Assembly: GCA_910589415.1 (NCBI GenBank)
Contig: OU342635.1
Coordinates: 15,500,001-15,564,000 of the forward strand
From: Malachius bipustulatus
Lineage: Eukaryota > Arthropoda > Insecta > Coleoptera > Melyridae
Reading direction: 5' to 3'
Length of the DNA: 64,000 nucleotides
In this document: piece after piece, positions 11,598 through 52,576 of the stretch
Layout: each line of letters starts with the position of its first letter
Position numbering within the stretch: position 1 is the first letter of the stretch
The notes under the pieces: model-generated
The model's database searches: none
What the model saw: the letters and a program-made list of their open reading frames with translations, nothing else
Told to the model about the DNA's origin: nothing
Made by a program: the position numbers and the translations under genes

Positions 11598-11600
11598 AAT

Positions 11601-14600: not shown

Positions 14601-14608
14601 TGTCCTCT

Positions 14609-15085: not shown

Positions 15086-15185
15086 GTGCGGAAAAGAGAA
15101 AATTTCTCACGAGTGTGAAACAATTGTGACACGAGACGAAGTCGAGTGTCACAATTCACACGAGTGTGAAATTTCTTTTCCGCAC
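15086..15185. repeat. 100-bp nearly perfect palindrome
   Basis: GTGCGGAAAAGAGAAAATTT at the left end matches, inverted, AAATTTCTTTTCCGCAC at the right end. The inner arms CGAGTGTGAAACAATTGTGA and TCACAATTCACACGAGTG continue to a centre at ACGAGACGAAGTCGAGTG. It lies immediately 3' of the recombinase-like frame on the minus strand and may belong to the same element. Confidence 0.8.
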
Positions 15186-15227
15186 GTGATACACACAGTA
15201 CTTTTCCTACGACCACAATTTAACAGA

Positions 15228-15437
15228 TTAATTATTTAACAAATTTAACACATAAATTATTTTTTCTGACAATGCTCTGCTTTTATGACCTTTTCTCCAA
15301 TTTATGAAATGTTTATAAGCAGATTCGTATTTTTCTCTCGAAACTACAGGTAGCAAATTCAAAGAACACAAACCTGCTTGTTTTCTGACTTCAGGTGGTG
15401 TATTTTCTGCTTCAGATTCAGAGGAATTACAATCCAT
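15228..15437 (-). pseudogene. N-terminal fragment of a Crypton-like tyrosine recombinase protein
   Basis: A 69-codon frame starts with ATG at 15437. After an acidic N-terminus (MDCNSSESEAE) it contains LLPVVSREKYESAYKHF and INWRKGHKSRALSEK. This matches from memory the SAM-like N-terminal domain of Crypton-derived tyrosine recombinases of arthropods, which typically read LLPEKSREKY...F..W...SFSEN. The family is several hundred residues long with catalytic R-H-R-Y residues in the C-terminal half. Here the frame stops soon after the first helix bundle, so it is truncated and cannot be active. Immediately downstream is the palindrome at 15086-15185. No database search was possible. Confidence 0.45.
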
Positions 15438-15534
15438 TATAATGATAGGTACCTAACTAAAGATTATTTTTTCAGACTACCTAGGTAGATATTATTTTCA
15501 ATTCTACCAATGACTTTTTAATATTACTATTATA

Positions 15535-16532
15535 CAGGGTGCACCATGTATCCTTCTCTATATTGCTATCTCCTGAACGCTAAGAGATACAGGTTCGGTT
15601 AAATTAGAGAAAAGATGCGCAGTTTTGTGGCCATCTCGAATTCGTCAAGACATGCAAGATATCTGTGACCGTTCCTGAAATATCATGAAAAAACTGAAAA
15701 ATCGAGATTTCTTATTTTCGTCATATCTTTTTTATTATTGGAAATTAATCAATAATTTTTTGTAGGCTTACATAAGCCGTTAAGAGCTATTCATCTGACA
15801 TTTCAAAAATTTTCAAGGCCTACTAGATCAAAGAGTTTTCACAGTCAACTTTCGTTTTTCTTATGGCCGCCATATTATCTTTTATATCTTTCGATTTGAA
15901 AAAAATAATGGAAACCAAAAATTAATAAACTTCAAAAAAAAAATTTCAAAATTTTATTCTTCTTTTTTCAAAGAAAAACCTAAAAAAAATCATCGAAAAA
16001 CGTCAACATTTGTAAAATACGCCGAAATAGTGCTTGCCTTATGGGTTTTTAATTTATCTGTGAAATTCGGTCTAAAAATGTGTCTTTTTTGTAAAGAAAA
16101 AAGAAGAATGAAATTTTTTTAAATTCATTTATTGAAGTTAAACAATTTTTAGTTTTTATGGTTTTTTTTATACCGAACAACATAAAAAAGCAATATGGTG
16201 GCCATAAGAAAAACGAAAGTTGACTATGAAAATCCTGGGATCTAGTCGGCTTTGAAAATTTTTGAAATATCAGATGGGTAGCCCTTGCTGACTTATGTAA
16301 GCCCACCAAAAATTATTTATTAATCTCCAATAATAAAAAAGATATGGAAAAAATAAGAAATCTGGATTTTTCAGTTTTTTCAGGATATTTCAGGAACGGT
16401 CACATATATCTTGTATGTCTCGACGGAATCGAGATGGCCACAAAATTGCGCTCCTTTGGACTTGTTTAACCGACCCTGTATCTGTTAGCGTTAGGAGATA
16501 GCAATATAGAGAAGGATATATGGTGCACCCTG
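15535..16532. mobile_element. 1-kb palindromic foldback (CAGGGTGCACCATG family)
   Basis: A near-identical relative of the element at 5035-6036, with the same CAGGGTGCACCATGTATCC ends in inverted orientation, TA on both sides and arms inverted over almost the full length. The copies differ by scattered substitutions and small indels, so both are old but intact in structure. No transposase. Confidence 0.85.
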
Positions 16533-17487
16533 TATACTGTTAAATCATTGAATTCTACCGACAAGACAATATTATTATTATTTATTATTAGACTCCGTAT
16601 AAACTAAAAATAAGTGACGTGAGCGTGGAGACGTGGTAGATAATAACAATGATTTAAGAGAAGTTAGTATATCATTGATATGCAACTTCTACACAACGCA
16701 GGCGCTGTGCGTCGTCGATGGAAGTTAGTAGAGGTGTGCGAGTTATTTTCACGATCACGTTCGTGAATTTGATTTGAACGCTATACTAATGCTGTTAATC
16801 AACTCGTAAATTTTAATAATTACTGCCACAAGAGAATAATGAGTATATTTTATAGTCTTGTCGGGTTCTATGTTATCCCATTTGTGTTTATTTTATTACC
16901 TTGAAGCTTTAAATGAATAGTTATTCCATTAACAATAAGTAACAGTTGAGTTCTCAGTTACCGTCCATCACTATTGTTTACATTAAAACTGTACGGAAAC
17001 GATTTTTGGCTATGCGTTATGTCACTTTGTCGCACAGTTTTGGATACGTGAGAAATCTGCTAGTTTGCGCACAAAAAACGATGCGCAAAGTAGTGTTTTC
17101 TATAGTGGTTGTAGGAAAAATTAATTTCTTTCATTACTGACATTACATTTGGTGAATATCTAAATTTTACCGTTGCCTAACTTTTCCGTAAAACTCTTTA
17201 TAATTTTCAAAATATGTACCACGTTTTTTTATATTGAAGTTTAGATAAACGCCATTTTCTCTGGAACTAAAATTCACACCGCGGATCGATCTAGTGTGCT
17301 CATATTTAATCTCTGAAAAGCACAAACTTATGACAAAAAATTTCAAAAAAAAAAATAAAAAATTATTTTTTAATTATATGGTGCGAATTTTTTGGCGGGC
17401 TCATACTACAATTATTAATAATTTGTTACTGCTCTTACAACAAAGTATAACATTGGAAATCGTCAAAGAGGTAGACATTATAATATA
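16533..17487. other. unannotated AT-rich sequence
   Basis: Between two foldbacks. No coding or structured element was recognised. Confidence 0.3.
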
Positions 17488-27318: not shown

Positions 27319-27729
27319 AGTGGAACTCCCCAAGCCAGCTTCCCAAGTCACAAACTCAGTCATTTCGTAGAAATGACTAATATCCAACCAAAACAAGCCA
27401 TGAGCCGAGCCCCCCGAACCTGCCATCGCCATGGCGGGTGACTTGGAAAGTTACGAAGCAGGGGCAGAGCTTCGAATCCTATCCAAAAAGACTTATTATG
27501 GTATTTACAAATTATAATTTCTTTTTAAGTGAATTGGGAATCACAGCCCTCCATATTTAAAAAGTAATCTTTGTTTTGGGCTTTCAAGTCCTTCTTTTGC
27601 TAAGGGCTTTGCCCAGCTTTAATTACACGGTGATCAAGTAATTTCGAAATTATTCAGGGTATTCCTTGAAGCAGAATTAATGTGTTAGAAGAAAAGAAAA
27701 AGAAATGCAGTAGTAAAAAATATACTCAC

Positions 27730-30266
27730 GTTTTAGCTACAGTAGACTTTTCACTCGTCGTCTGTCTAGGAATCAACTTCCTATCGATTTGTCTTTGGCT
27801 GTTCGAAGGTGTTACGTTATAGACTTTCGATTTGACGTCTTTCAAGTTAGTTTTCAGATCGGTTTTCGAGATCTTATTCATCACAGCGTCCCATCGGCTC
27901 GTGGGTTTCTTTAGGCTGCTTCCTTTATTATTCGCACTAGGTTCAATCATGGCCTTTACTTTAGATGTGACTTCCTTTTTCGGCAGTTTGTATTTCTTCA
28001 GCGGGGACTCGTCTTTAGAAACGTGTCTCGGAGACAAAACACTGGAAGGACTAGAAGCCACCGTAGAAGGACTCGGCGCGTTTCGTTTTTTAGGATTATC
28101 CTTCTTTTCTACCTCCTCGACTGCAGACTTTTTCACGATATCGACCACGTTATTTTGAGAGTTCTCAGATATCGTTTTTGAAGACGTGTCCGACGGAGAG
28201 ATGTCAATGTTAGGTGGCGGTAGAACGATGTCATCGGCTCTTGTATTGTTCATCTCAAGATCCGTGAAAATACCGCTCGAATCCATGTTCTCTCTGTTAT
28301 TAACGTAAATATCGGCGGCCGCCTGTGGATCGACTCCATAAAGAGTGCCGTCTATGACTTGAGCTCTCCTGTCACCTCTCAAAGGATTCTCTTCATGATT
28401 ATCAGCATCACTTTCTGTGTAGAAATCTGAATCAGTCATGGGATCCTGTCGTCGAGGTTGGGGCCTAGGTATGGGTCTCCTAGTCAATGGAGAATTATCT
28501 GCGCCTCTACTGGCCGGTCTCGACATTTCTCCGTCTCCCTGATATCCAGTATCCAAGCTGGTGATACTGGTGATACTGGTGATGAAACTATTTGTAGTTT
28601 TATTATTAACTTTGACCGCGGCAGCTTTGGAGTTGTTCGATTCTATTATCGGCATAGGATCTAATGGAAGATCTTCAGGAGAAGGTGTTTGCTCTAAGCG
28701 ATTTAAATTGTATTCGTTACACTTATCAGCAGTGTCTAAAGGTAATTCCATATTCACAGTGGTGTCAGTTTTTAGGGTGAGGTTTGAAAGCAGTTGCTCG
28801 TCGATAATGCCGAAACTGTAGTCCGTCACATTGCTTGGACTCGGCAGTTCTGATTTTAGTTCGAATTCGTGAAGGATCTGCTCGGTGTCCTTTTCTTTGA
28901 TAACGTTGTCGTTCTTGCTAGGATTTTCTTGAACCGAAAGTGTCGATGGCTTCAGTTTCACTTCTCTTTCCGACGCTTCTTCCAGTTTGATGCGGATGTA
29001 ATCGGTGTTTGAAATTTTATTCGTGAAGAAATTCATATCTTCAATTATCTGATCGGGCGTTAAAATGCCCAAGCTTTCATCAAAATCCAAGGAATCCCTT
29101 TTGTTACTCTCATCTTCATTGAATTCGCTGTTTATATTTAGACTAGAAAATTTCTTATTGCTGATAATAAAAGATTGCGAACTGGAAAAACGTATGTCTT
29201 GGCCACTTTTAGAATTTGCGCCTATAATATTAGAAGGGACATCACATTTTTCGCTGGTGGTTCCAGTTAATGTTGAAGTTGAATTAGTTGCGGATGAAGA
29301 TGGTGTGGTTACTATAATTTTATCTGAATCGTTCGATTTGTTGCTTGGAATTGCAACAGTAAGACTCTTACTTGCAATAGTAGTAGTAGTATTTGAAGAT
29401 TGATTGGAATTAGTAAAATTTAAATCACTTCGTATTGTGTCAGAAAATTTATTTTCGATGTTAATCTGTTTATTGTCTGGTACAATATCGATTATCTCCT
29501 TCTGATTTTTATGGGGGTAACTTTGAAATTTTGTTTTCAATAATGAACTTTCAACTTCTTTTTCGTTCAAACATGAATCAATAACATTACTCGAATATAT
29601 AAGTGGAGAGCTAGTAAACTCTGTAGCTGTCTGAATCAAACAACCTTCTCTATCTTGGTTTTGGTTACTTTTAAAAGAAGCCGAAAATGCCACAGGAAAA
29701 AAATTATCTCTTACTTTCGAACTAGTATTATTTACAGAATCTTCGATTGTATCTTTTTTCGTTTTATGACTCGGCTCGACGCAGAACTGCTTCTGATCCA
29801 GGAAAGTCTGTATACCTTTCAGTTTCTTCAGACTATTGGCAAACCTATCTTCCTCATCGTCGGAGTCATCTTTCACGCCCCGCTTGGAATTGTTCTCTAT
29901 AAACAATATACTAAAAGGCCCGGAAGCAACATCTTCCAAAGAATTATTCTCTAGTACGACCTTGCTGAACGGCGCCATCTGTCCTCGATTCGGTGGACAA
30001 CAGAAGTACCGCACACCTTTGACGTAGCCATCGTGAGTACCGGTGGTACTGCCGGTTAGTTCGATGCCGCACCAGATACCCGGAGCGAAGTGAACGTTAC
30101 CGATGTACCGGAGGATGCCTTCTTTGCCCGCTAGATGGACCTTGCAGCCTAGCACGACTTCGGAGAGTGGAGACGAGGTGGTCGTCGATGATATCGATTT
30201 GGGTTTCGAATATTGAGAAGGTTGGGGTATCCTGCTTCCAAATGTTGGAATTCGGGAGGGACCCGT
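27730..30266 (-). CDS. CAP-Gly domain protein, 2.5-kb exon (partial gene)
   Basis: The acceptor TTTAATTTCAG precedes base 30266 and the donor AC|GTGAGTATA follows base 27730, giving 845 codons plus two bases. Residues 1-36 are a basic, Ser/Pro-rich lead (TGPSRIPTFGSRIPQP). Residues about 37-107 form a CAP-Gly domain: GCKVHLAGKEGILRYIG, FAPGIWCGIEL, GTHDGYVKGVRYFCCPP, SKVVLEN. CAP-Gly domains bind C-terminal EEY/F tails of tubulin and EB proteins through the GKNDG loop, which here reads GTHDG. The rest is a Ser/Thr/Asn-rich linker, an acidic patch near residue 609 (TDSDFYTESDAD) and a basic Ser-Pro-rich tail. It therefore resembles CLIP-type microtubule plus-end linkers. There is no methionine start in the exon, so it continues from an upstream exon. 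Its 3' partner is 23976-24106. Exact orthology is not certain. Confidence 0.9.
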
Positions 30267-30899
30267 CTGAAATTAAAGAAAAAAAATTAAAATAATAATC
30301 ACAACTCAAAAAAATATTTTTCGTAACTCTTTGAAGCTAAAAGTTTTTGGTATCCAAAAAATAGATTTGATGGCAATGGAACATGCGGGCGGGGAATATT
30401 TGAAAGGACTTTAGTCAGCCTCTTCACAAAAAATTTCTTGCTATCTTTGCCATCAATAAAGTTTAAAAAATTCCAAAGACATTTTAATTAAAAAAAAAAA
30501 AAAATTATCGCAAAAAAACAGAAAAACGAAAATTGAAAATGTGTACTAGCAATTAATAATAGACACATCCTATTATTTATTTATGAGGGTTATTACTGAG
30601 GCAGTGAGCATGAAATATTTATTCAGCCTCAGTTAAGAGTACCGAGAAAATATCTATTATTAACAGATTATCTACTCCAGTTAAAATTTTCACTTCAGGA
30701 ATTTATGATTTCGATTTCTTGACACTCCCACAAAGTCTCTAGTTTTGTTACAATTTGTGAGCGGTGATCCAATGCCCCGCTATTAAGGCCCATAAAAGAC
30801 GTCAAGACATCATGAAAGGATGGTTCAGTGCAAGAAAAAGGTTATTTTTTTCGGACCGCTACCATATGTAACTGTGCAATACACAAATAACATCGTATA
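30267..30899. other. upstream intron of the CAP-Gly gene
   Basis: Begins with the acceptor of the large exon read on the minus strand. No upstream coding exon was recognised between here and the end of the window. Confidence 0.4.
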
Positions 30900-31773
30900 C
30901 AGGGTGTTTCTTATTTCAGAACTCTCCAAGGTATCTCTTAAACGCGAAGAGTTAAATTTAAAAAAAGTTGCTCTATTTTGTGTCCATCTCGAATCCGTCA
31001 AGATATAGAAGATATCTGTGACCGTTCCTGAAATATCCTGAAATAACTGAAAAATCAAGATTTCTTATTTTTGTCATAACTCTCTTTATTTTTGGAAATT
31101 AATAAATCATTTCTGAAGGCTTATTAAAAAAAATATCGGTCACAATAGCCAAGCTGCTAGAGTTTCGGTCAAACGATCTCTAAAGTGCAGCATGACTTTT
31201 CTTGGTCAGTACTTAGATGGGTGACCAAAATTATAGTGGTAAATAAAAAAGTTCCGTGACCGATCGTGCTCCGGGAGGTACGTTAAAAAGGGGGTCCCGG
31301 CTGCTTCACAGCAGTCGTTAAGTTACGTCAGAGGCCCTTGAGGCTACTTGAAAACTTCTGACACTTGGGCTTTACCACAGCCATAAGATATTTATTTTTT
31401 TATTTATTAAAAAAAAACACATTAAAAAAATACCGTATTTATCACCGAATGACGTCGTGTGACTTCGCAATATGACGTCGTGACATTGCTTGACTTATGA
31501 TTATTTATGACATTCGGTTGAAGAAAATTTTTTTTTTCGAAAAAAGAATAAATTTTGAAGATTTTTTTTTAAATGTTTGGTTTCCCTAATTTTAACCATA
31601 CAAAAAATATTTATTAAGCAATTTTCGATTTTTTTTTCAAGATATTATTCCACAAACGGTCATAGGTTGGCGGATTCGAGATGGCCACAAAATAGAGCAA
31701 CTTTTTTCTAATTCAACTGACCCTGTATCTCATAGCGTTTACCCATGGTGAGCTTTGAAATAAGGGACACCTG
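30900..31773. mobile_element. foldback of the CAGGGTG group carrying a SINE
   Basis: The left end CAGGGTGTTTCTTATTTC is inverted in GAAATAAGGGACACCTG at the right. Inner arms match those of the 5.0-kb family (GAATCCGTCAAGATATAG against the inverse of GGCGGATTCGAGATGGCC; GACCGTTCCTGAAATATC). The right end is mutated. It is interrupted by the 5S-derived SINE at 31134-31398. Confidence 0.7.
31134..31398 (+). mobile_element. 5S rRNA-derived SINE (SINE3 type)
   Basis: The 5' part carries the internal promoter region of 5S rRNA: AAAGTGCAGCATGAC resembles box A with the intermediate element, and GGTCAGTACTTAGATGGG with GTGACC is box C, matching the highly conserved GGTTAGTACTTGGATGGG of 5S genes. 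A non-5S body follows (GACCGATCGTGCTCCGGGAG, GGGGGTCCCGGCTGCTTC), then an AT-rich tail. It is flanked by TTATTAAAAAAAA at about 31121-31133 and a near copy at 31399-31411, which looks like a target-site duplication. Such SINEs are transcribed by RNA polymerase III and mobilised by a partner LINE. A truncated second copy is at 53217-53385. Confidence 0.8.
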
Positions 31774-31800
31774 TTTTTACTATTGTTGTTTTAATTTATA

Positions 31801-33003
31801 CAGGGTGTATCATAAATACACCGACAAACTTTTAGGAGTAGTAGGGTGCGTGAAAACAAACAATTTTTCCTCATAAACATTTGTCCAAAAACGCTTAGTT
31901 TTTTGAGATACAGGGTGTTAAAATTTATCAAAAATGTCATTTTGTTATTAATAGCTAAAAAAAGCTCTCATTTTAATGAAATTTTGAGAGTTTGTTAAGC
32001 CTTCTTTTGAAATCATCACAGTTTCAGACAATATCTCAGGGTACACACGGTTAGGTACGACCTTTTGAGTATTGCTGAAAATGCACCCAGTACTTTTTTG
32101 CAATTTTAATTATTTTTTAGATAAAGCAACTAAGAACACAGCTTTACTTGTACTTGATGTTTTTGCGTATCTTGCTTCGTTTTCTCAAAGGATGTCGAAA
32201 AATTGATTTTAGTTTTAATGATTTTATTTAATCAATTTTTAAACACGCTTTAAAGCGGCTTCGATTTTTTTCTCAAGAAAGAAGTAAGATAAGAAAACAA
32301 TTATTCAAGAGACAAAAATAACTTGTATTTCAGCTGCGCAATCTGAAAAAATATTGAAATTTTAAAAAAGTCAGTGGCGTACATTTTTTTTTTGCAATAA
32401 TATTAGTGAGGATGAAAAAAGTTTTAACACTTAAGGTGTTTATAAATGAAGCACATGAACGTGTAAATGAAACATAAATATAAAAAAAATTCAAATAACT
32501 TTTTTTGAATGTCATTTATTAAACAGGTTTTTCAACACCATTTGTATCTCGGTTAAAAAATTGCTTTCGAAAAAAAAATTATTTCCTAATATTTTAGCTT
32601 TATCTGCAAGCCCTTCAATTTATGGTACTTTTAAACTATTAAATAAATATAATAAAAATTAAAAAATGTAAAAAACACTACATTTGAATTTTTATCGAAA
32701 GGTATAGTTGGACCAGAGATATAACGAAACGACTTCTGTCATTTTATCAATTTTTGGATTATTGAAATATTGTTGAAGTCATAAAATATGACAGTTTAAC
32801 AATTAGATTTTTTCGTTATATCTCTTGGTCGACAATATATTATACGTCCTATCGAAATTTTATAATGACATATACTTCATTTAGAAACACCTTGTATATC
32901 TCGAAAACGAAGTGTTTTGGACAAATGTTTTTGAGAAAAAGTGTTTCTTTTAATGCCCCCCACTACCCATAAAAGTTTGTCGGTATATTTTTGATACACC
33001 CTG
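31801..33003. mobile_element. 1.2-kb palindromic foldback with CAGGGTGTATC ends
   Basis: Ends CAGGGTGTATCATAAATACA and the inverse of TTTTTGATACACCCTG, both flanked by TA. Arms are inverted: CCGACAAACTTTTA against AAAAGTTTGTCGG, and AACATTTGTCCAAAACGC-like blocks on both sides. No transposase frame. Non-autonomous Tc1/mariner-type. Confidence 0.8.
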
Positions 33004-33899
33004 TATATTTTGGGTTATGTAATATGAAGCCCCGAAAGAATGTTAGATAACGTGCATTATTTTCAGTTTCAACAAAGGACGAACAAGTGCCCTCGATACA
33101 ATACGTTACCTATATGGAAAAAATATATATATTTTTTATTTTCTACTAATTAACTAGGAATCCAATCATTAATTATTATCATATTGAAATTCACAGAGCA
33201 AAGAAACACGCTCTAATGAGTTACCATTACGATTAGAGGCTACAAAAATTGATGTAAATTTGTGTTGACAACTAAAAAAAATTGCCGCATTTTTTATGAC
33301 CTGGTAATTTTAACTCAATGGTTGAGTTCACTATACCATACCATACCACCTTTAGCACATCTACGTAAAGGTTTAATTTGTTTTTTTCTATTATTACGTG
33401 TAATAATCAAAAACATTCGGGCATGCATTTGAATATCTTATTACAGAGACAAAATAAAATTTAAAAAAAAAAGAAAAAACATACCAAAAGTTTTCCTGAT
33501 TTATTATTTCATTTTAACCAATCACATGGATTAATTTAGTACAGTAATTATTATGATTTCGGTAATACACAATCGACTGTACTGTTACAGTAACTTCAAT
33601 AATAGGTAACGCATTAAATAACTGTTGTCTTAAATTTATTTGGTTAAGGAATGAAATGCGGTCGTTTTCATAGTAACGAATTTCAGTGTTATAAATACAA
33701 ACAAATCAAGCGGTCTATTAATTAAATGAGTTAATAACAATATTATCGTATCCATTTTTTATTTTGTTCGACCATATACATAATCAAAAAAATCAAAACC
33801 TTCCCCTAAGAGTTTTGGATAGATGGGCTTACATAATATTTGAGAATGTTTTCTTGTGATTTAATTCGATTGCCGGTTCCTTTTACAGTACGAATTGGA
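33004..33899. other. unannotated AT-rich sequence
   Basis: Between two mobile elements. Nothing recognised. Confidence 0.3.
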
Positions 33900-33930
33900 A
33901 ACCTTTCACACAGTATGAGGTGAAACTAAA

Positions 33931-33977
33931 GACATGGACGGTACCGTTTCGACCTTATTTGAACTAATCAGCATGTC
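33931..33977 (-). ncRNA. hammerhead ribozyme motif, left copy (core mutated)
   Basis: On the minus strand helix I is GACATG with CATGTC (six pairs). The core reads CTGATTA in place of CTGATGA, helix II is the weak GTTC/GGTC around AAATAA, and GAAA is intact. Helix III is ACG/CGT closed by GTAC, and the cleavage triplet is GTC at 33939-33937. The G-to-T change in the core should abolish activity, but helix III is perfect here. Confidence 0.65.
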
Positions 33978-34228
33978 ACAATCAGTAACTACACACTACA
34001 CGCTTGTAGCGACTTGCGACTTTGTAGAGAAACAGATGTGTATCATAATCGACTCTTGTATAATTTAGAGACGCCACTGACTTTGACTCAAACACAGAGA
34101 ACTGAGTTACACTTTGATCACTATTATAAGTACACCTACGTACATGTATTATTTAAAGCTTAGTTATTTAAATATTAGTTCCAAACTTGGCATAGGTAAT
34201 ATGTGTAGTGTCTATTCCTGACTGGTGT

Positions 34229-34275
34229 GAAATGCTGATGAGTCCAAATAAGGACGAAACGGTACCCTCCATTTC
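34229..34275 (+). ncRNA. hammerhead ribozyme motif, right copy (core intact)
   Basis: Helix I is GAAATG (34229-34234) with CATTTC (34270-34275), six pairs. The core CTGATGA lies at 34235, helix II is GTCC/GGAC capped by AAATAA, and the conserved GAAA is at 34256. Helix III is ACG...CCT capped by GTAC, with one C-C mismatch, and predicted cleavage is after C34269 (CTC). All core residues are canonical. Helix I differs from the left copy by a paired A-T for C-G change, which keeps pairing. Activity may be reduced by the helix III mismatch. Confidence 0.75.
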
Positions 34276-34308
34276 TTCAGTTTCACCTCGCATTCTATGC
34301 GAAAGTGT

Positions 34309-34988
34309 AAGTAAATTTGGTAACTCTATAAATTACGTTTTAGAAAATAATAGGATATAATATGGTTTACAAATTTACAAACGCGAACTTTTTCCAAAGC
34401 GTGTCTAAATAACGTTCTCTTTTTTTTGCTCATACGATTTATGTTTTTTGGGATGCTTAAGCCGAGTTTGAAGTTTGCTAACAAAAATTCCTGGAACGTT
34501 TATTTTTTCGGTTTCTTGCTCATAATTTCGAAACTATCGATTTTGCGAAAAGACCATTTGAACAAAGTTAAAATAAACACAATTTACTACTAATTTATAG
34601 TTTTTGACCACGGGACCAACAAACAAGTAGTGTGGATCTAGAGCAAGTTGAAAATCGACGAAATTTTACTACTCTGCAAAACAAAATAGCGTCTTTCGTC
34701 GGTTTTCTGAAAATAACTCATAATTTACGCATGCATTTCTCGTAAATATATGTACAAATTGAAAGAGCACTCCTATAGATAGAGGTACATAAGTCTCCAA
34801 CAGTCGCCCGCAAGAGCACTTCCTTTCGAATGACCGTAACAAAAACCGTCGTATCAATCTCCTCTGGGAAAAAAACTGCATGACGACTGGCAGTATGGCA
34901 TCATGCATCGCGGATCACCCACCCCACCCTCAAACATCACCTAGTCCAAGAGAAAATACAGGCACCTTAAAATAAGAGACCAACTTAG
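34309..34988. other. unannotated sequence
   Basis: No supported feature. Confidence 0.3.
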
Positions 34989-35210
34989 GTCCGGTTGCAC
35001 GAACGTAATTAAAAATCTTTCAAATAATTACTGATTTCAAACTGCAAAATTTGAAAATTTGGTGAATATTTTTAACGATCTATAATTTTTTATTGGTAAT
35101 AATTAACTCTTCCATATAAGAAAATAGAACTTACTTTCAGCAATATCGGGGTATTTTAAAATTGGTGATTATCTGACAGATTTTTAATTATTACGTTCGT
35201 GCAACCGGCC
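34989..35210. mobile_element. MITE of about 220 bp with CCGGTTGCACGAACG ends
   Basis: Terminal inverted repeats of about 27 bp: CCGGTTGCACGAACGTAATT at the left and the inverse of TTATTACGTTCGTGCAACCGG at the right, followed on both sides by AAAAATCT-like sequence. The interior is AT-rich and non-coding. The superfamily was not determined. Confidence 0.8.
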
Positions 35211-36345
35211 ATTAGTGTTCAAAGACCCTGTGACCAACTTGGAGGATCTCGTGGAAGCTGCAAAAATGTTTTTCTTTTCAAACAACCGACTTAATCAAAA
35301 CATTAAAATCCTTGTAGGTAATAAATTTGCCAATAATAAATTTTGTCGAATGTTTGAGTGAAATACCTACCATGTATAGGTACCATGAAAGTGCTGTTTT
35401 ATTATTTCTTAATCTTAAATATTATATTAATCTTTAGTTAGAATAATTTTAACGTAAAAGTAAACTAAATATTAATTTTCTATTCACTTTTCGAAATTAC
35501 CTTTAATATTAGATTTTAATGATACCTGAGATAACAATTCTTGACTGCAGACACTCATGACTCAACACATGTGAAAATGTCGATGTGAGTTTGAGAAATG
35601 GTTAATGGAGACACAAAATGAGGATATTATTACTGGAAACGAAAATTTTGAAGCTACTTTCTTTTTGACACTGACATTCAGAAATTTCTGCACACCACAA
35701 TGCCGTTTTTTATTTTCTTATTATTATGCTAATTATTATTTAAATTCATATTGTTTGACATTAATAGAATATTTATACCGCCTGGAAACTTTTAAGTGCA
35801 AATTTAGATTTGTGCAATAATATTTATTATCCCCAGGTTTAGATTTAGAGAAAAATAAAAATAAACGGAAAATAATTTTTGACAATAAAGATTTGTATTT
35901 AACGAGCCAATTTCAGTTAAAACACTTCACTAATAATGTTTGCTGGAAATTAATAAATTTGCTGGAAACGCAGGTAGGTACATACAAATACACATCAGAA
36001 GACGGAGATTTGCTTCGGAACAAATCTCCATGGACAACGGCAAAACAGCCCGGAATCAACTATGATTTCAAACTAACAGTAGCTAATCAAGTAAGGTACA
36101 TTTTATCCATTGCCAGAAGTCATTCCAATAATATTTTATTCTACAGATATAAGCCTGGAGAATATACTATTCACACATAATAACTGAATTTGCATGTTAA
36201 ATCCCTATGACCCACTTACAAATTTCCACCCTGTATGTTACTATAATAGGACTAGAAGACATCTTGAGCATTTGAGCAATTGACGCTTGCTCCACAAATC
36301 TACTAGGTAGCGTCTCGCGTCAGTGCGCGTAAATCCTTTAACCTA
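35211..36345. other. unannotated sequence
   Basis: A 95-codon plus-strand frame (35893-36180) has no recognised domain or splice context. An isolated CACCCTGTATG at about 36228 is the scar of one CAGGGTG-type terminus. Confidence 0.3.
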
Positions 36346-36651
36346 CAGTTCTGTTCAAATAAAACTGGGACAGTTTTAATTTTCTAGTTTAAATGTGGCT
36401 TTTAAATAGAACAATGTTTCCATAGTTTCTACCTGGTGCCCATGCTGTCAGCAAAGATGACATTCAATTTTTTTTGCCTAAAAATTTAAACTAAGTACAT
36501 AAAATAAAAAATTAATTTCTCATTTTGATTCCTAATGAATAATTATTTTTACCTCTTGCTACATGAATCAATTATTATGATAAATTTTGTTTTGTCAATA
36601 CACAAACACAACACAACAAAAAGTTGTCCCAGTTCTATTTGAACACAACTG
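36346..36651. mobile_element. 306-bp MITE with Tc1-like CAGTTNTGTTCAAAT ends
   Basis: CAGTTCTGTTCAAATAAAAC at the left is inverted in GTTCTATTTGAACACAACTG at the right, and ACTGGGACA against TGTCCCAGT extends the repeat. TA flanks both ends. CAGT at the tip and the TA duplication are typical of Tc1-like transposons. Confidence 0.85.
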
Positions 36652-37879
36652 TACGTTCTATCCATGCATCTTCCATCTAACATAAAACGAACGCCGAATT
36701 GATGACACGAGCTAGAAACATGAGACACGACGAATTATGGGACTAATGTTAATAAGAAGAATAATATAGTAAAAACGTAGAGCCAAGAGCGAGAGTGGGA
36801 TCCTCGAACTTGTGCCCTTGTGGGCTAGACGCTTGTTGAAAAACTAGATATATTATTTCTGTCATAATTGTCATAATTTCACGTCAATAATCAGTATTAT
36901 GTCATATTTTGACAATGTCAAAAGCTATTACTGTACTAGTACAATAATAATGAAAAAATTGTTCCTAGTAAATTCACAGAAAAATAAGATAATATACAGT
37001 GTGTGTCACAGGCATGGTACACCCCCTTTTTTTTGACTGAATTTTTTCTCACATCCGGTTTTTCCGGAAATGTTACCAACTTTTTATTTTTAAATGGGAC
37101 ATCCTATATATTATTAAATTTTTGGATTCTATACATTTGTACGAATCCAACAATACCACATAAGTACCATTTTAAATGTCAAATTTGTTTTTATTCAATT
37201 TTTTATTTCTCAATTATTATGTGCCATGACTTAGTGGTTGTGTTCGTCAGAGATGCAAAATGGGTACACCGAAATGTTCCTTATTAAGAGTACTAGGAGA
37301 TGGTACCTCGGTACCAATATGGTACCATTTGAAAAAAATGAATCCAGCTCAAAAAATCATTCCGGTGCGCATAATTTATGCATAAATCACTCAATTTAGT
37401 ACTTTGAACAATAATTCGATTTTTCTAGCATTAGATGATCCAATTGGAGTAAAACGAAATAGTCATGGCACAGTATAATTGAGAAATGAGAAATAAAAAA
37501 TTAAACAAAAACAAATTTGACATTTAAAATGGTACTTATGTGGTATTGTTGGATTCGTACAAATGTATAGAATCCAAAAATTTAATAATATACAGGGTGC
37601 ACCATGTATCCTTCTCTATATTGCTATCTCCTGAACGCTAAGAGATATACAGGGTCGGTTGAATTAGAGAAAATATGCGCAGTTTTGTGGCCGTCTCGAA
37701 TTCGTCAAAACATGCAAGATATCTGTGAACGTTCCTGAAATATCCTGAAAAAACTGAAAAATCGAGATTTCTTATTTTCGTCATATCTTTCTTATTTTTG
37801 AAAATTTATAAATAATTTTTTGTAGGCTTACATAAGCCGTTAAGAGCTATCCATCTGACATTTTTGTCTGACATCTGAC

Positions 37880-38410
37880 ATCAGTATTTTTTATACAGAT
37901 GATATAGAAAACAAGATATTGATATTTAACAGCGCACTACTTAATTTATTTCATACGCATATGCCACTAAAATGGGTAAAGGTCGATGGTGCGCCTACTC
38001 CTTGGATAACAGATAACATTAGATTACTTATCACAGTGAGAGAGAATGCTAAGTTGAAATATAGACGGTCTAGATCTCCTACTGACTGGACTGCTTATAA
38101 GGAGCTTCGTAATTTTACCAATATAAGTATTAGAAGAGAGAAAAAAGCATATTTCAGCTACAAATTGAGGGATAGACGATTGCGTTCGGTTTACAGGGAG
38201 TTGAAATATTTAGGTGTTGGAACTAGGGATAGGGGTGCGGTTCCAGAACAGCTGAGTAATGTTGAACTTATAAGTGATCACTTTGTCGGCGGCATGCCAG
38301 GTTCCATCTATGGTGGTAATGGTGATGATGCAGATAGGGCAGATATTAATGAGAGGTATATGGGGCTGGTAGGAGGATCAATGGTGGAGGGGTTTTTTCC
38401 TTTGTTTTAA
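37880..38410 (+). pseudogene. LINE ORF2 linker region upstream of reverse transcriptase
   Basis: An open stretch with features of the segment between the endonuclease and reverse transcriptase of CR1/Jockey-type LINEs: ALLNLFHTHMPLKWVKV, PWITDNIRLL, then a basic helix with REKKAYFSYKLRDRRLR. The endonuclease itself is absent. The frame runs into a stop at 38410 after a run of six T, and coding continues in another frame from about 38411, so one frameshift separates the parts. Confidence 0.7.
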
Positions 38411-39951
38411 CAGAGAGAGAGACAATACTTGGCATGCTTCAGGCCATCAGGACGGGCTCTGTGGGTTGCGATGAGATTAGCATTCGCATGCTTAGAACTA
38501 GTTGTCCGTATATTCTCGACCATATCACTAATATAGTAAACTCTTGTTTATTGCAAAATTATTTTCCAACGGCATGGAGGCAGGCTCTTGTGTTGCCCCT
38601 GCCCAAGATATCACAGCCGACTGAATACACTCATCTCAGACCAATTAGTATTCTCCCAGTTCTCTCGAAAGTCCTGGAGAGGAATATGTACAACCAAATA
38701 CGGACGTATCTAGAAGAGAATAATTTGCTTCCTGACGTGCAGTCTGGTTTTAGACCTAATCACAGTTGCCTGACTGCCTTAAGTAGTGTTAGTGACGACA
38801 TATTGCGTGCTACGGAGGAGGGTAAAGTGACCGTACTGGTGCTGCTTGATTTTTCCAGGGCATTCGATACAATTAATCATGATATTATGATTAGAATACT
38901 CAGACATATGTCGTTTAGTGAGGATGCTTGTGGATTAATCGACAGCTATTTACGAGGACGTTCACAGAGGGTAAGACTGGGCGAAGATACGTCCACGCCT
39001 CGTTATCTTGAGAGTGGTGTCCCCCAGGGCTCCATACTTGGACCACTGTTGTTCACGATCTATACCTCTGGAATGTGCGACGTGGTGAAGTACTGTAAAA
39101 TTCACATGTATGCTGACGACACACAATTGTACTTATCCTGTGATCCATCAGAGATTCATGTGGCTGTTGAAAAACTTAATTCCGATTTGGACTCTATCTT
39201 TCGATTTTCCGCGTCTCATTGCCTTAAACTCAATCCAGATAAATCGACATTGTTGCTGTTTGGGAGTGGGGTATACTGCGAGAGAATTAGAAACAATGTT
39301 AAACTCACAGTTAACGATACCGAATTAAAAATTAGCACGGAAGCGAGAAATCTGGGATTAATAATGGATAACTCATTTAGATACAGGAAACATGTTGACA
39401 TATGCCTGCGTAAGGCATATGCGAATCTACGTTTATTATATCCACATAGGTCTTTCATACCGCAAAAGTTAAAGTTACAGCTCTGTGAAACTTTAGTTCT
39501 GTCGCAGTTTATGTATTGCTCGCCAGTGTTTTCTCCCTGCCTGGATTCGAAAACTATGTATAAAATACAAAGGGTTCAAAATGCTTGCTTGCGCTTTTCC
39601 TATGGAGTCAGAAAATATCAGCATATATCACCCAAACTGAGAGAGGCGGGATGGCTTAACATGAAGAAGTATCGCTTTAAGTACTACCAGGCTTGTTTTT
39701 ATCACAGAATAATTGATGCTCAAACACCCGCATATTTGAGTGATAGAATTAAATACAGAACAGACATTCACAACATTAATATACGTAGAAGACATGTTAT
39801 ATCGCTCCCAAAATACAGACTGGCGATTTTCGAAAGGTCTTTTACATTCAATGTTTATAAAGTATATAATGAACTGCCTGAGTGTATTAAGAAATTAAAG
39901 ATCAGCAGCTTCAAAAGAGCAGTTCATGATCATTATCTTAGTCTGCAATGA
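38411..39951 (+). pseudogene. LINE reverse transcriptase (CR1/Jockey group), nearly complete domain
   Basis: A 505-codon frame holds reverse-transcriptase blocks in order: GSVGCDEISIRML; PLPKISQPTEYTHLRPIS; QSGFRPNHSCLTAL; motif A LLDFSRAFDTINHD; SGVPQGSILGPLLF (motif B); motif C MYADDTQLYL; then LKLNPDKSTLLLFG. The C-terminal thumb region ends with YNELPECIKKLKISSFKR, typical of the group. The catalytic Asp residues are all present, so the domain looks intact. The element as a whole is 5' truncated and frameshifted upstream. It has no RNase H. The YADDTQLY motif and tail favour CR1-like over Jockey proper, but the clade is an inference. Confidence 0.85.
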
Positions 39952-45460: not shown

Positions 45461-46574
45461 CAGGGTGTCCCATAATATGTGGGCAATCTCCCGGATTTGG
45501 GTAAATTTCGTAAAAATCAATGAAAAAATAGCTATAAAATTAATTCCTCAGAGACACCCCTACAAAGATATTAGCTGTTGAAGTTGAGGGTTGAAAATCA
45601 ACTTTTTGCAATAACTTTTTTATTTCTTGACCGATTTTGATAATTTTTGGTTTTATTTTCTATTAGAAAACAATAAAAATAATAATTTTACAGTTTTTTA
45701 AGGTTAATTTTCTTTTTATTTGATAATTTCTACATCAAAAATGTATCTTTATTTATTTCGATAGAGCGAACCGTTATCGAGATAAACGTCCTTCTAATAG
45801 GTGACGCGTCGCAGGAACTTTCTAAATTTCAAGTAAATTTTAACAAGATGGCTGACCTTTGACAGTAAATTGAGCAGGAAACAAAACAAAAACTTAATTA
45901 AATACACGTCAAATAGTGTCAAAGTTTTCATTTCATGCAGATTCAATTCTAACTGATTTTAAAATGAGTTACACAAATGCTGAATACGCAGAAAATCAGT
46001 TAGAATTGAATCTGCATGAAATGAAATCTTTGACACTGGCATGTATGTAATTAAGTTTTTGTTTTGTTTCCTGCTCAATTTACTGTCACAGGCCAGCCAT
46101 CTTGTTAAAATTTACTTGAAATTTGGAAAGTTCCTGCGGCGCATCACCTATTAGAAGGACGTTTATCTCGATAACGGTTCGCTCTATCGAAATAAATAAA
46201 GATACATTTTTGATGTAGAAATTATCAAATAAAAAGAAAATTAACCTTAAAAAACTGTAAAATTATTATTTTTATTGTTTTCTTTCAAGTGAATGAGGGG
46301 GTTATGCCATCCCGAGGTCTATGTATGTGCTACCAAAGATTATGAAACACTATTCTAAACAGTCCAAAATAATACAAAATAAAACCAAAAATTATCAAAA
46401 TCGGTCAAGAAATAAAAAAGTTATTGCACAAAATTTATTTTCAACCCTCAACTTCAACAGCTAATATCTTTGTAGGGGTGTCTCTGAGGAATTAATTTTA
46501 TAGCTATTTTTTCATTTATTTTTACGAAATTTACCCAAATCCGGGAGATTGCCCACATATTATGGGACACCCTG
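45461..46574. mobile_element. 1.1-kb near-perfect palindrome with a transposase start codon in its loop
   Basis: CAGGGTGTCCCATAATATGT and its inverse form the ends, flanked by TA. The arms are about 500 bp and strongly conserved. Only about 30 bases separate them, and these contain ATG at 45964 opening MSYTNAEYAE. That string matches the conserved N-terminus of DUF4817-bearing mariner-like transposases (consensus YTNxEYADM). The arms would then be the 5' terminus and 5' UTR of such a transposon. The right arm carries an insertion of about 90 bp at 46287-46378. Confidence 0.85.
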
Positions 46575-47379
46575 TATAAACTGAATAAAACGTTTTGTTT
46601 TGTTGAAGATTTTTTTAATTTTTAGAGCGAAATTTCATCAGATTAAGAATTAATTAAGAACTATCGAACTTTTGTACCACCACGATAAATTCAATAGTAA
46701 CGTTTCATTATGACGACGTAAAGCTGAAGTCTCATAAGCCGAAGGTAGTAATTATTATACCCATTATTAGCGTATTATTATTGTAAAATGAAGTCATGAG
46801 GAAAGCAAATAATATATACAGATACATAATGTTACGATAAATAATGTAAGTACTTGCATTAAACGTTTCACCGTTACGCGTTTATGTATTTACCTTAAAC
46901 ACCGATAAATCCAAAGCTAGTGGTAATAATGATACCGTCAATATCAATTATTTTATCAGACGAAAGGTAAAGGTAATGAAATGATGATTGAGCAAGTATT
47001 TCTTGCGCCTTGGGCATAATAATAAATAGTTCAACTAACCTGGATGCGATCCAGTAAGCAAAAATAAAAATTAGTCCGGTTCACAAGCAATCTCTTTATT
47101 GGAACTTCCGTCATCGCCGTAAATTACCAATAATTAACGGTCTTCATATTGATGTGATTTTCTATACAGCCACCGACCGTAAAGTATTTGTTGATAAACA
47201 TAGACTGAGTTTGTGACATATTTAATATCCTTACCTTCAGCTGATTTCAATTAAAACACAAGCGTAATTTCAAAATAAGTAACAACATTCTCAACAATGA
47301 TGAGTCGCGGCCTCGACAGAAGTGCGGCAGAAGAACGCTGATTAAGAACAACTACGCTTAGTCAGCATAAAATAAAGTG
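46575..47379. other. unannotated sequence
   Basis: Nothing recognised. Confidence 0.3.
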
Positions 47380-48490
47380 CGATGGAAGAGTCGCCAAAAG
47401 ATGTTGCTCTTCTAGAACTGCCGTGAATGTTATCAAATGATACTGTTCGGGAAGGTCAAACGGAAATGAACCCAAAATCTTAAAAGCCGAAGAAAGACCA
47501 CAAGAGCTACAGATCGTATAAGCCTACTCCCAGTCCCAAGCAGAAAGAGTGAAAAGAGTCATTCTGAAAAAAATGCAACAGGCAAACGTGTTGCTGCTCT
47601 TAAAATGTCACGAATTTTCTCAAAGGATAATGTTCGGAAAGGTCAAACGGAGATGAACCCAAAATCTTAAAAGCCGAAGAAAGACCACAAGAGCTACAGA
47701 TCGTATAAGCCTACTCCCAGTCCTGAGAAAAAAGAGTAGAAAGAGTCATTCTGAAAAGAATGCAACAGGAAATCGTGTTGTTGCTCCAGAACTGCCGCGA
47801 ATGTTCTCAGAGGATAATGTTCGGAAAGGTCAAACGGAGATGAACCAAAAATCTTAAAAACCGAAGAAAGACCACAAGAGCTACAGATCGTATAAGCCTA
47901 CTCCCCCAGGCCCGAGCAAAAAGAGTAGAAAGAGTCATTCTGAAAGGAATGTAACAGGAAATCGTGTTGCTGCTCTAGAACCGCCGCGAATGTTCTCAAA
48001 GGATAATGTTCGGAAAGGTCAAACGGAGATGAACCAAAAATCTTAAAAGCCGAAGAAAGACCACAAGAGCTACAGATCATATGAGCCTACTCCCAGTCCC
48101 GAGCAAAAAGAGTGAAAAGAGTCATTCTGAAAAGAATGCAACAGGCAAACGTGCTGCTGGTCTTAAACTGCCACGAATAATAAAAATAAAATAATAATGT
48201 TCGGAAAGGTCAAACGGAGGTGAACCAAAAATCTTAAAAACAGAAGAAAGGCCCCAAGAGCTACAGATCGTATAAGCCTACTCCCAGCCCCGAGAAAAAA
48301 GAGCAGAAAGAGTCATTCTGAAAATAATGTAACAGGAAATCGTGTTGCTGCTCCAGAACTGCCGCGAATGTTCTCAAAGGATAATGTTCGGGGAGGTCAA
48401 ACGGAGATGGACCCAAAAAAATCTGGAAAACCATAGAAAGATCCGAAGCGCTACAAATCGTAAACCTACTCCACCATTGAGCAAAAGTGG
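47380..48490 (+). repeat. 187-bp tandem repeat, six copies, derived from a LINE reverse transcriptase
   Basis: GGTCAAACGG marks each unit at 47454, 47641, 47828, 48017, 48208 and 48395, giving periods of 187, 187, 189, 191 and 187. Units are about 90% alike. Each contains a decayed reverse-transcriptase block: TDRISLLPVPSK in one frame and KRVILKRMQQ in another, matching YRPISLLPVLSK..E.VI..RM of Jockey-type LINEs. The array runs directly into the next block of the same enzyme (QFGFRSQHSASEQ). The period is not a multiple of three, so it is not a coding repeat. Confidence 0.8.
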
Positions 48491-49553: not shown

Positions 49554-50145
49554 GAAAAAGCTGAGTAAACACCGGCTGAGATGGGCAGTTGGACTTCTAA
49601 CAGGACACTGCCCACTAATAAAACGTGGATCCTTTTGGACAGAAAACCTGACACAAAAGGCCAATAACTAATTTTCCTCATGGGAAAAAACCTAAGGGAG
49701 AAAATAGTGCAACTTCAATGCAGACCTTACCTAGGCCTAACTGGGTTGCTGTTCAAGCGACTAGGTGGGTAAAGGGCAGAGGGAGCAGAGAAGATGTAAC
49801 TGAAAAAGCTGAGTAAACACCGACTGAGATGGGCAATTGGACTTCTAACAGGACACTGCCCACTAATTACACCTCTCAATAATAGGAGTGAAAAATATAA
49901 CAGGATAACAGGAGATGCGGGGAGGGGGAGGAAACCCCATACCACCTAATATGTGAATGCCCAGCACTATAGAGGGAACTAGACTTCTAGTATTTGGGAC
50001 CGAAATGGCAGAACCAAAAGAAATAGAACAAGCACCCATTGGACTCATACTGAAATACTTTCGGGAGATGGGACCGATGAGATAATTATCCAAAGGGGTA
50101 CAATAAGCGCAAGCTTCAGTACAAGGGCTTTGAACCTACCCTAGA
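49554..50145 (+). pseudogene. RNase H C-terminal relics of an R1/I/Jockey-group LINE, duplicated block
   Basis: A 60-bp block encoding LSKHRLRWAVGLLTGHCPL occurs twice, at 49554-49614 and 49803-49863, nearly identical. After the second copy come CGEGEETPYHLICECPAL (the Cys/His motif at the end of such RNase H domains) and EIEQAPIGLILKYFREMG, then a stop and about 50 bp of 3' UTR that ends in the (TAA)n run. Frameshifts separate the blocks. The first copy loses similarity quickly after GHCPL. Confidence 0.75.
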
Positions 50146-50146
50146 A

Positions 50147-50207
<61 letters not shown>

Positions 50208-50208
50208 G
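50146..50208. repeat. (TAA)n tract, about 20 units
   Basis: It forms the 3' tail of the RNase H-type LINE relic and the 5' flank of the R4/Dong-like element. Confidence 0.9.
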
Positions 50209-51150
50209 GACGCGAGTTGGATCAGAGAGGAGGAAAAACATACACAAAACATCACAGACGTGCAATTCAGCGAGATTACACCACGAGACATAAGCGATAC
50301 AATCAAAAACATTCATAACTGGAAGGCACCCGGGATAGACAACATCCATAACTTCTGGTACAAGAAGTTCACATGCCTACATCCGAAACTGGCCGCACAT
50401 TTTACAGATATCCTCAATAATCCGCAGAACACACCTGCATTCTTTACACAGGGCATCACATATATGATGCCAAAAAACAATAATACAGAAAACCCTACAC
50501 AATACAGACCAATAACATGTCTCCCAACAATTTACAAAATTCTGACTTCAAACATAACAAACAAAATATACTCTCATCTGGAAAACAATAACGCACTCAC
50601 AGAACAGCAGAAGGGATGCCGCAGAAACCACATGGGATGCAAGGAACAACTCCTTATCGACTCAGTGGTTCTGCGTCAGGCACATAGACAACATAGACAA
50701 TTAAACATGGCATACATAGATTACAAAAAAGCATTTGACAGCACACCACATACTTGGCTGATACACATATTAAACATTTACAAAATTCACCCCACGCTCA
50801 TCGCCTTCCTCGAGAACATTATGACACACTGGAGAACTACACTACGTCTTACGCTCAATAAAACAACTATAACTACAGAAGAAATACCTATACGTCGAGG
50901 CATATTCCAGGGGGACTCATTGAGTCCACTGTGGTTTTGCCTTGCCTTGAATCCACTCTCAAACATGCTGAATAATTCAAATTATGGATTCAACATAAGA
51001 GACAACAAAACAACACACTATACTCTGTCGCATCTGCTATACATGGATGATATAAAACTATACGCATCCACACAAACACAGCTGCAACATCTGCTGAAAA
51101 TTACACACACATTCTCACAGGACATACATATGGAGTTTGGAGAAATGTAA
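50209..51150 (+). pseudogene. R4/Dong-like reverse transcriptase, N-terminal part
   Basis: Blocks in order: NWKAPGIDNIHNFWYKK; RPITCLPTIYKIL; LTEQQKGCRRNHMGCKEQLL, a signature of the R2/R4 group; motif A MAYIDYKKAFDSTPH; motif B RRGIFQGDSLSPLWFCLALN; motif C LLYMDDIKLYA, with the MDD form typical of R4 and Dong. Catalytic Asp residues are present. The frame ends at 51150 soon after motif C by a small indel, and the protein resumes in another frame from about 51132. Confidence 0.85.
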
Positions 51151-52576
51151 AACTCTCAACATCGAAAAAGGAACTCTGGTGGCAGGTGAATTCGCTCTTG
51201 AAAATGGCGACAAGATTGAATCCATGGAAGAGGGCGAGGTATATAAATATCTTGGTTTCCAGCAGGCCAAGCTCACAGAACATACACAAATAAAACAAAC
51301 ACTAAGAAAAACGTACATAAACAGACTAAACCAAATATTAAAAACAAAACTGAATGCCAAAAACACAATAAAAGCAATAAACACATACGCTGTACCGACA
51401 CTAACATACTCGTTTGGAGTTATACAATGGACACAGACAGACTTAGAAGACCTCCAGAGGAAAACCCGAACAACACTCACAAGACACAAACAACATCATC
51501 CTAAATCAGCCACAGAAAGGCTGACTCTACCTAGAGAGATGGGGGGAAGAGGCCTTATTGACATACCCAATCTGCACCACAAACAGATAAATAATCTTCG
51601 AGAGTTCTTTCACGCAAAACAAACCACGTCCAAACTACACAAAGCCGTAAATATCGCAGACAGAAACAACACACCTTTAAACCTACATAACAAAAACTTG
51701 GAGCTACACATAACAGATAATAATACAAAACAGCAGTCGTGGACCCAGAAGGAACTCCATGGGAGACACCCCCATGAGCTGAGCCAGAACCATGTCGACA
51801 AACAGGCGTCGAACAAGTGGCTTAGTTGTGGGAACCTTTTTGGGGAGACCGAAGGGTTCATGATTGCTATACAGGATCAAACAATAAATACTAAAAACTA
51901 CAGAAAACATATACTCAAGGACACCACAATCACAGACGATACATGCAGAAAATGTCATTTATCACAGGAAACAATACAACACATTACAGCTGGATGCAGA
52001 ATACTTACACAAACCGACTATCTACATAGACACAACCAGGTGGCGAACATTATACATCAAAAACTCGCAGCTCAGTACAAACTCATCGACATGTATACAC
52101 CATATTACAAATACAACCCGCAAACAGTATTAGAAAATAGCACTCACAAATTATACTATGACAGAGCCATCATCACAGACAAAACAATTCATCATAACAG
52201 ACCAGACATCACATTAATAGACAAAGAAAACAAAAATACATATATAATAGATATAGCGATACCCAATACATACAACTTGCAGAAAACGGACACCGAAAAA
52301 CATACAAAATACATAGATCTAGCACAGGAGGTGCGACGCCTCTGGAGGATGGACAGGGTAGTCATCGTACCGATAGTCTTGTCCTCTACAGGGGTTGTAC
52401 CATATACACTACATAAAAGCTTACAGACACTCAAAATGCACAAAAATACGTACATAGAACTACAGAAAGCCACAATAATAAGTACATGTCACATCGTTAG
52501 AAAATTTCTGTACGCAGACATACAAATAGATGAACATCCGACACATTTAACAGAATTGACACAACACACAAACTAA
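51132..52576 (+). pseudogene. R4/Dong-like ORF, C-terminal part with restriction-like endonuclease
   Basis: It continues the reverse transcriptase with SLEKCKTLNIEKG and YKYLGFQQAK, then LPREMGGRGLIDI. A CCHC motif follows: CRKCHLSQETIQHITAGC. After it come YLHRHNQVANIIHQKLA and the endonuclease core NRPDITLIDK...YIIDIAIPN with KYIDLAQEVRRLW. The RPD and D-A-x-P residues correspond to the catalytic site of restriction-like endonucleases that give site-specific LINEs their target choice. Apart from the frame break near 51140 this part is intact for 479 codons, so the copy is fairly young. Confidence 0.85.

Follow-up and report, generated by a model that had tools for sequence, protein, structure and literature searches.

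The systems closest to the element described here are the Penelope-like elements and the animal non-LTR retrozymes. A typical Penelope structure comprises two direct pLTRs and an adjacent inverted pLTR, with head-to-head being the arrangement seen most often, for which self-priming on an antisense template was suggested; a 31-bp tail is optional on one inverted pLTR, and target duplications span 8-10 bp (9 bp in one example) (PMC3846280). For a Penelope-type protein, cutting and extension of both strands are reported, together with an internal start of reverse transcription that explains the tails (PMC11167929). Penelope elements have been proposed, as merely likely or possible candidates, to be the helpers of animal retrozymes (PMC7761336, PMC11722881).

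In a 64-kb stretch of DNA from the beetle Malachius bipustulatus (hereafter, the window), we analyzed a locus that is best read as one old insertion of a non-coding, non-autonomous retroelement with a single type I hammerhead per unit. This element and its family share with Penelope-like elements that have inverted pLTRs the head-to-head arms, variable 5' truncation, an optional tail of about 31 nt, short target duplications, tandem copies and a hammerhead in the terminal-repeat region (PMC3846280, PMC11167929). Unlike Penelope-like elements, however, the window element encodes neither a reverse transcriptase nor an endonuclease, and, unlike the minimal Penelope hammerhead, the family ribozyme forms three pairs in helix III and possesses an outer helix I. 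With animal non-LTR retrozymes, the family shares small size, lack of coding capacity, a type I hammerhead whose short helix III is capped by a palindromic tetraloop, dispersal and some head-to-tail junctions (PMC7229834). It is, like a retrozyme, a small non-coding repeat with a type I hammerhead, but it does not form direct tandem units of 170-400 nt, each with its own hammerhead: the unit is about 530-550 nt, compared with the 170-400 nt of animal retrozymes (PMC7229834), no two hammerheads stand in direct tandem in the 40 family loci, and head-to-head pairs are frequent, whereas the main text of PMC7229834 nowhere uses the word 'inverted'. The features of the locus, in window coordinates, are the following.

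33835-34001, minus strand: left unit copy, 3' part (profile columns 305-484; nhmmer E 2.1e-39), holding the minus hammerhead and forming, with its 3' end, the outer boundary of the insertion on the left
33903-34001, no strand: left arm of the inverted repeat (partner 34203-34305; 82.7% identity, 104 columns)
33931-33977, minus strand: hammerhead with G8->U, U.U in helix II and a perfect helix III; predicted inactive; HH9 20.5 bits over 33916-33989
34005-34161, minus strand: left unit copy, 5' part (columns 71-251; nhmmer E 2.5e-28)
34162-34176, no strand: head-to-head junction, where copies of opposite orientation meet, exact point uncertain (positions 1763-1777 of locus L001)
34169-34308, plus strand: right unit copy (columns 274-408; nhmmer E 2.8e-41), holding the plus hammerhead
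34203-34305, no strand: right arm of the inverted repeat (partner 33903-34001; 82.7% identity, 104 columns)
34229-34275, plus strand: hammerhead with an intact core and C.C in helix III; predicted cleavage after C34269; HH9 25.2 bits over 34217-34291

The left copy has the segment between its 5' and 3' parts missing or replaced, and the right copy is 5'-truncated and, beyond 34308, 3'-truncated or decayed; the two copies lie head-to-head, in the orientation of a Penelope-type insertion, and the inverted arms are 201 nt apart. An earlier, sequence-only reading had delimited an inverted-repeat element at 33900-34308; its arms are present, but the element is larger, with unit homology extending over 33835-34308. 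Flanking repeats of 9 nt or longer are not seen at the window copy. The interval 30500-37800, which surrounds the element, holds no long frame, and a Pfam search of the 10 larger open reading frames of the window returned RVT_1 twice and GIY-YIG not at all. The same reading had taken the element to be non-autonomous, which is supported, and the element bears hammerheads and is present in multiple copies.

Both 47-nt hammerhead segments are found at the positions originally assigned to them. The plus copy (34229-34275) reads GAAATG / CTGATGA / GTCC-AAATAA-GGAC / GAAA / CGGTACCCT / C34269 / CATTTC, and the minus copy (33977-33931) reads GACATG / CTGATTA / GTTC-AAATAA-GGTC / GAAA / CGGTACCGT / C33937 / CATGTC, the predicted site corresponding to cleavage in the latter being after C33937. 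The type I core (CUGANGA, GAA(A), NUH) is present in the plus copy and broken at G8 in the minus copy, in which the core substitution G8->U is accompanied by a U.U mismatch in helix II. Thus, the plus core is canonical, the minus core broken and the minus helix III perfect, as had been described, but helix III of the plus copy is not intact, carrying C.C at 15.2/16.2, a pair that is C-G in the majority of family copies. Helix I does differ on both sides between the copies (GACATG/CATGTC vs. GAAATG/CATTTC), and it is in the plus copy that both sides are altered relative to the family. G8C and C3G are named as hammerhead mutants (PMC11167929). The minus copy is predicted to be inactive, such that the plus copy could be the only one at this locus still able to cleave; self-cleavage from both strands, as envisaged for this locus, is not supported, the minus copy lacking G8.

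We assessed the significance of these motifs in 64-kb windows generated at random with matching first-order composition. A strict layout (canonical core, four of four pairs in helix II and six of six in helix I, with no requirement on helix III) was found in 1 of 400 such windows and a looser hammerhead layout in 94 of 400; the core pattern occurred once in the window vs. 0.11 expected. The outcome of the Rfam comparison was divided. A scan of the 64-kb window at the gathering threshold gave no match, whereas in positions 33800-34500 taken alone (701 bases), Hammerhead_HH9 matched the plus strand at 25.2 bits (E = 7e-4) and the minus strand at 20.5 bits (E = 0.023), both below the gathering score of 52. 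Among the 20 family loci scanned, 14 had a hammerhead match with an E value of 0.1 or better, and two passed the Hammerhead_1 cut-off of 34 bits, namely L009 (37.2 bits, despite a core broken by C3->A) and L041 (35.1 bits, core intact). The motifs resemble Rfam Hammerhead_1 (RF00163) and Hammerhead_HH9 (RF02275) in core, helix order and cleavage site, but differ from these models in that the window copies score below gathering and only 2 of 20 family loci reach the Hammerhead_1 score. The recurrence of hammerhead matches in the other genomic copies settles the reality of the motifs: both are genuine.

Core integrity and covariation were counted in an alignment of 31 of the 36 copies then collected, i.e. 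from loci other than L031-L041; it omits L011, L024 and one arm each of L015 and L026, all irregular near the core, as well as the duplicate L019. The core was intact in 15 of the 31 aligned copies, and L030 was the only one that combined an intact core with every pair. Cells in which both sides of a pair had changed numbered 3, compared with 0.85 expected by shuffling (p = 0.045). In the tool's own count, 2 pairs had changed on both sides, a value as high being reached in 140 of 500 shuffles, the 3 cells were matched in 45 of 500, and the covariation score was equalled in 36 of 500. Given these shuffle counts, the compensatory change in helix I is real but constitutes weak evidence of selection, and covariation as a proof of selection was dropped.

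A search of the 544-Mb genome (52 contigs, the window being C13:15500001-15564000) with 33900-34308 as the query started from 1140 first-look candidates, scored 40 and yielded at least 107 matches; 30 loci from this search and 11 further listed places, after removal of L019 (the same place as L025), make up the 40 loci. In the hammerhead sense, the unit consists of 485 profile columns and a longer 3' end of about 47 nt, with the core at column 335. At head-to-tail junctions in L015, L024 and L031, the long 3' end runs into the 5' start, from which the unit length of about 530-550 nt follows. The majority motif of the aligned copies is CUGAUGA-GUCC-AAAUAA-GGAC-GAAA-CGGUACCGU-C, and most of them have helix I GACAUG/CAUGUC and an outer helix CUGA/UCAG. 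The mean divergence of copies from the majority is 8.5% over 62 matched stretches, so that the family is old. The exact motif patterns had no match in viral contigs or in bacterial and archaeal genomes. In coding content, the family has short frames only, with a stub of about 36-40 codons in many copies. At 34238-34360 of the plus strand and in many family copies, the AUG within the core CUGAUGA opens this frame of about 36-40 codons, MSPNKDETVPS... In an Anolis Penelope element, the open reading frame begins at stem II (PMC11167929), and, by analogy, the short frame that starts in the core may be the leftover of an ORF start. A near-perfect long hairpin in L037 (2758-2846; 44.9 bits to a microRNA family with a cut-off of 90) is probably a MITE.

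When the unit profile was run on the 40 loci, neighboring copies within 200 nt were head-to-head in 14 cases, tail-to-tail in none and on the same strand in 6, in a sample that is possibly enriched for head-to-head loci, the family query itself being head-to-head. The inner junctions of all 14 pairs are distinct, with the paired inner 5' ends lying 26-422 columns apart, indicating that each pair arose separately. In 9 of the 14 pairs, both outer ends are at the common 3' end (column 480 or beyond), and in 12, the copies abut, with less than 30 nt of gap or overlap. Of the 40 loci, more than half have no inverted partner, and the extent of 5' truncation varies. The hammerhead region is present in both arms of at most 7 of the 14 pairs (L001, L004, L009, L012, L026, L039 and, in part, L015), and at least 7 have one arm without it (L002, L005, L021, L023, L036, L037 and L038).

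Target duplications were found around the head-to-head pairs L005 (11 bp, with tails of 36 and 3 nt beyond the profile end), L036 (12 bp, tails of 3 and 37 nt) and L038 (13 bp, tails of 24 and -1 nt), and around L027, a single copy (14 bp); of the two arms in each of L005 and L036, one extends about 34 nt further than the other. In the 1718 cross-locus controls, exact flanking repeats of 11 or more had a frequency of 0.9%; repeats of this length are lacking at most of the 42 clusters (a number inferred from the 1718 ordered cross pairs). In an earlier pass with narrower flanks, duplications were seen in L005 and L027 only. Paired arms are not more alike than random copies, contrary to one of our suppositions: the identity is 85.1% within the 9 of 14 head-to-head pairs that share 50 or more columns vs. 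85.5% in 1521 other copy pairs. With a decay of about 8.5% per copy, the source identity of the arms is hidden.

A Pfam GIY-YIG search of the same genome produced 775 candidates, of which 150 were scored, many of them in tandem arrays of about 3.3 kb with frames of more than 800 aa; one open reading frame (L076) carries both RVT_1 and GIY-YIG domains. Among the neighbors within 4 kb in the 150 scored of 775, 18 were head-to-head, 1 was tail-to-tail and 44 were on the same strand, in a census that is free of orientation bias because the query is a single domain. The head-to-head arrangement, which the sequence-only reading did not recognize, is therefore not a new one: 18 of the 19 opposite-strand GIY-YIG neighbors in this genome show it, and head-to-head inverted terminal repeats were already described for Penelope elements (PMC3846280). 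A literature search that did not extend to the main papers on Penelope hammerheads found no report of hammerheads in inverted arms; among the papers compared for both terms, PMC3846280 alone uses 'inverted pLTR', and it never uses 'hammerhead'. An apparent single tandem array of Penelope-type units of about 3.33 kb, mostly with 833-aa frames, occupies positions 3382-82839 of a contig of 84,009 bases (C11), and changes orientation, minus first and then plus, in the interval of 20 to 26 kb; the contig may represent the end of an array or a fragment of the assembly.

Four of 30 GIY-YIG loci (L068-L071) contain the hammerhead-like motif GTTGTC-CTGATGA-TGGGCTAACCCCC-GAAA-CCGGTT-GACAAG, which in L069 and L070 is present on both strands. 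Rfam gave no score to this minimal motif in L068-L071, its helix II does not pair at the base, and a second, more stringent scan for hammerheads was negative in 14 Penelope-type loci, including L068-L071; a long-looped match in L061, from a looser scan, was taken as chance. End repeats were checked in L069 and L070, chosen for their motifs on both strands. These two loci are inverted duplications of 953 bp and about 1.12 kb, with arms 99.6% identical, flanked by 12-bp duplications and with tails of 32/-2 and -1/31 nt, the longer arm exceeding its partner by 34 nt in L069 and 32 nt in L070. An open frame of L069 encodes GIY-YIG (E = 5.4e-8), and L070 was retrieved by the same Pfam GIY-YIG search, above its cut-off. 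Thus, L069 and L070 are young insertions that share a signature with the old hammerhead family, in which L005 and L036 match them and L038 does so less exactly. The relation in mechanism to Penelope elements that had been surmised is supported by this shared signature.

We consider it probable, with good though incomplete confidence, that the unit of about 530-550 nt was inserted by Penelope-type machinery and that the paired inverted ribozymes are a by-product; the machinery would most likely be a telomerase-like reverse transcriptase with a GIY-YIG endonuclease. Insertion would begin with a staggered cut of about 11-13 bp, as suggested by the target duplications of the relatives (there is none at the window locus). 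Reverse transcription would then be primed on each of the two broken ends, starting within the 3' region of an element RNA in either case, and the observed end positions point to two start sites about 34 nt apart, at which the enzyme would initiate. Both cDNAs would end at variable upstream points, as seen in the variable inner junctions, and would presumably be joined 5' end to 5' end. The product would be a head-to-head pair in which both strands carry a hammerhead if both cDNAs reach it, as they do in no more than 7 of the 14 pairs; the paired ribozymes would be a by-product because a hammerhead comes to lie on each strand whenever both cDNAs are long enough. Separate priming on each side and the identity of the acting protein are what we infer from these structures. 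By analogy with retrozymes, the hammerhead's own role would probably be the processing of multimeric transcripts. Under self-priming, the two inner 5' ends are expected to coincide; they do not, and two-sided priming fits better.

Among the alternatives, twin-priming inversion fares best, although we regard it as unlikely. Here, copying of a single multimeric RNA would start at either end of the break, and the inverted piece would derive from the upstream part of that RNA; L023 is a good fit (unit columns 86-161 inverted beside 146-483), L021 fits in part, and the head-to-tail unit junctions suggest that multimeric templates exist, but 9 of the 14 pairs terminate on both outer sides in the same 3' end and have arms that overlap in unit coordinates. 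Common 3' outer ends and overlapping arms call for two RNAs, or for priming at two unit 3' ends within one multimer. Two independent insertions of the same repeat that came to lie head to head by chance are improbable. The arms of a pair being no more alike than other copies would be expected in that case, but the orientation bias is 14 to 0 (to which the query may contribute), the junctions abut in 12 of the 14 pairs, a single duplication encloses the whole pair in L005, L036 and L038, and the arms of the young Penelope-type pairs L069 and L070 are 99.6% alike. Our initial view was a fixed palindrome with one decayed arm, abandoned once the junctions were seen to differ. A fold-back or MITE-type DNA transposon, mobilized as a fixed palindrome whose arms each bear a hammerhead, would account for inverted arms and target duplications, both of which are present; nevertheless, it is highly improbable given that 14 of 14 inner junctions differ, contrary to the amplification of a fixed palindromic structure as a unit, that more than half of the 40 loci are unpaired, that 5' truncation is variable and that one arm is about 34 nt longer in L005 and L036. 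Equally improbable is the view of the sequence-only reading that the element is selected for self-cleaving ribozymes on both strands: both window arms retain the motif, helix I changed on both sides and the compensated cells exceed expectation (3 vs. 0.85), but the minus core is broken at the window, the core is intact in only 15 of 31 copies and the hammerhead region is missing from an arm in at least 7 of 14 pairs.

Insertion by Penelope-type machinery raises the question of the helper. The unit profile matched none of the 35 GIY-YIG loci checked, in a further difference from Penelope-like elements; the anticipated autonomous relative, with a Penelope-type reverse transcriptase and the window hammerhead, was thus not found among these loci. 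An old Penelope-type family with 149 matches, mostly with short or stop-bearing frames, was also present. A fragment of it lies directly upstream of the unit in L025, and another lies near the unit, in the opposite orientation, in L008; this proximity could be explained by chance and is a lead only. As proof of kinship, it was dropped, being confined to two loci, and in the relic endonuclease loci L081 and L082, the unit is absent within about 1.4 and 1.2 kb downstream. L081 has a readable motif that we take to be that of the endonuclease, on which Pfam is silent; Pfam found no domain in the L025 fragment, the L008 fragment or the L081 relic, and a homologue search with the L025 fragment found none.

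Other features of the window are of different kinds. A large open frame on the minus strand (27726-30272) encodes a CAP-Gly domain (Pfam E = 5.9e-19) and is CLIP/restin-like, its best matches being 59-61% identical over about half its length (Zophobas 61%, Tenebrio 60%). These and further named relatives are beetle proteins, which on its own makes a beetle host very probable. Two broken retrotransposon regions with reverse transcriptase domains, which we take to be of the non-LTR type, lie on the plus strand at 37859-39951 and 50134-52576. Long inverted repeats occur at 60920-61799, 45665-46283, 54119-54677 and 5031-16536, for example, 273 nt with 99% complementarity and a family of about 490 nt at several places, and MITE-like elements seem to be dense in the window. 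Short direct tandem arrays of retrozyme-like size are present at 47342-48369 and 63041-63867, with periods of about 187-191 and 148-163 bp; a hammerhead scan of the whole window found none in these arrays.

Taken together, the finding is real, the earlier reading was too strong, and the Penelope-type insertion is the interesting part. A non-coding hammerhead family and two young GIY-YIG-bearing insertions have a signature in common, namely, a duplication of 11-12 bp, head-to-head arms and one arm about 33 nt longer, which lends structural support to the link between retrozymes and Penelope helpers. More speculatively, and at somewhat less than even probability in our estimate, retrozyme-like, ribozyme-bearing non-coding elements would be parasites of Penelope elements, with double-ended target-primed reverse transcription as the insertion mode of the two: RNA ends would be primed on either side of a single staggered cut, one at a 'short' and the other at a 'long' internal start, the cDNAs being joined head to head. 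If this is true, double-ended priming would account for the long-puzzling inverted repeats of Penelope elements as well as for the tail on only one side, and the helper of retrozymes would be identified. The mechanism of head-to-head Penelope insertion thereby becomes testable, with many natural junctions to measure.
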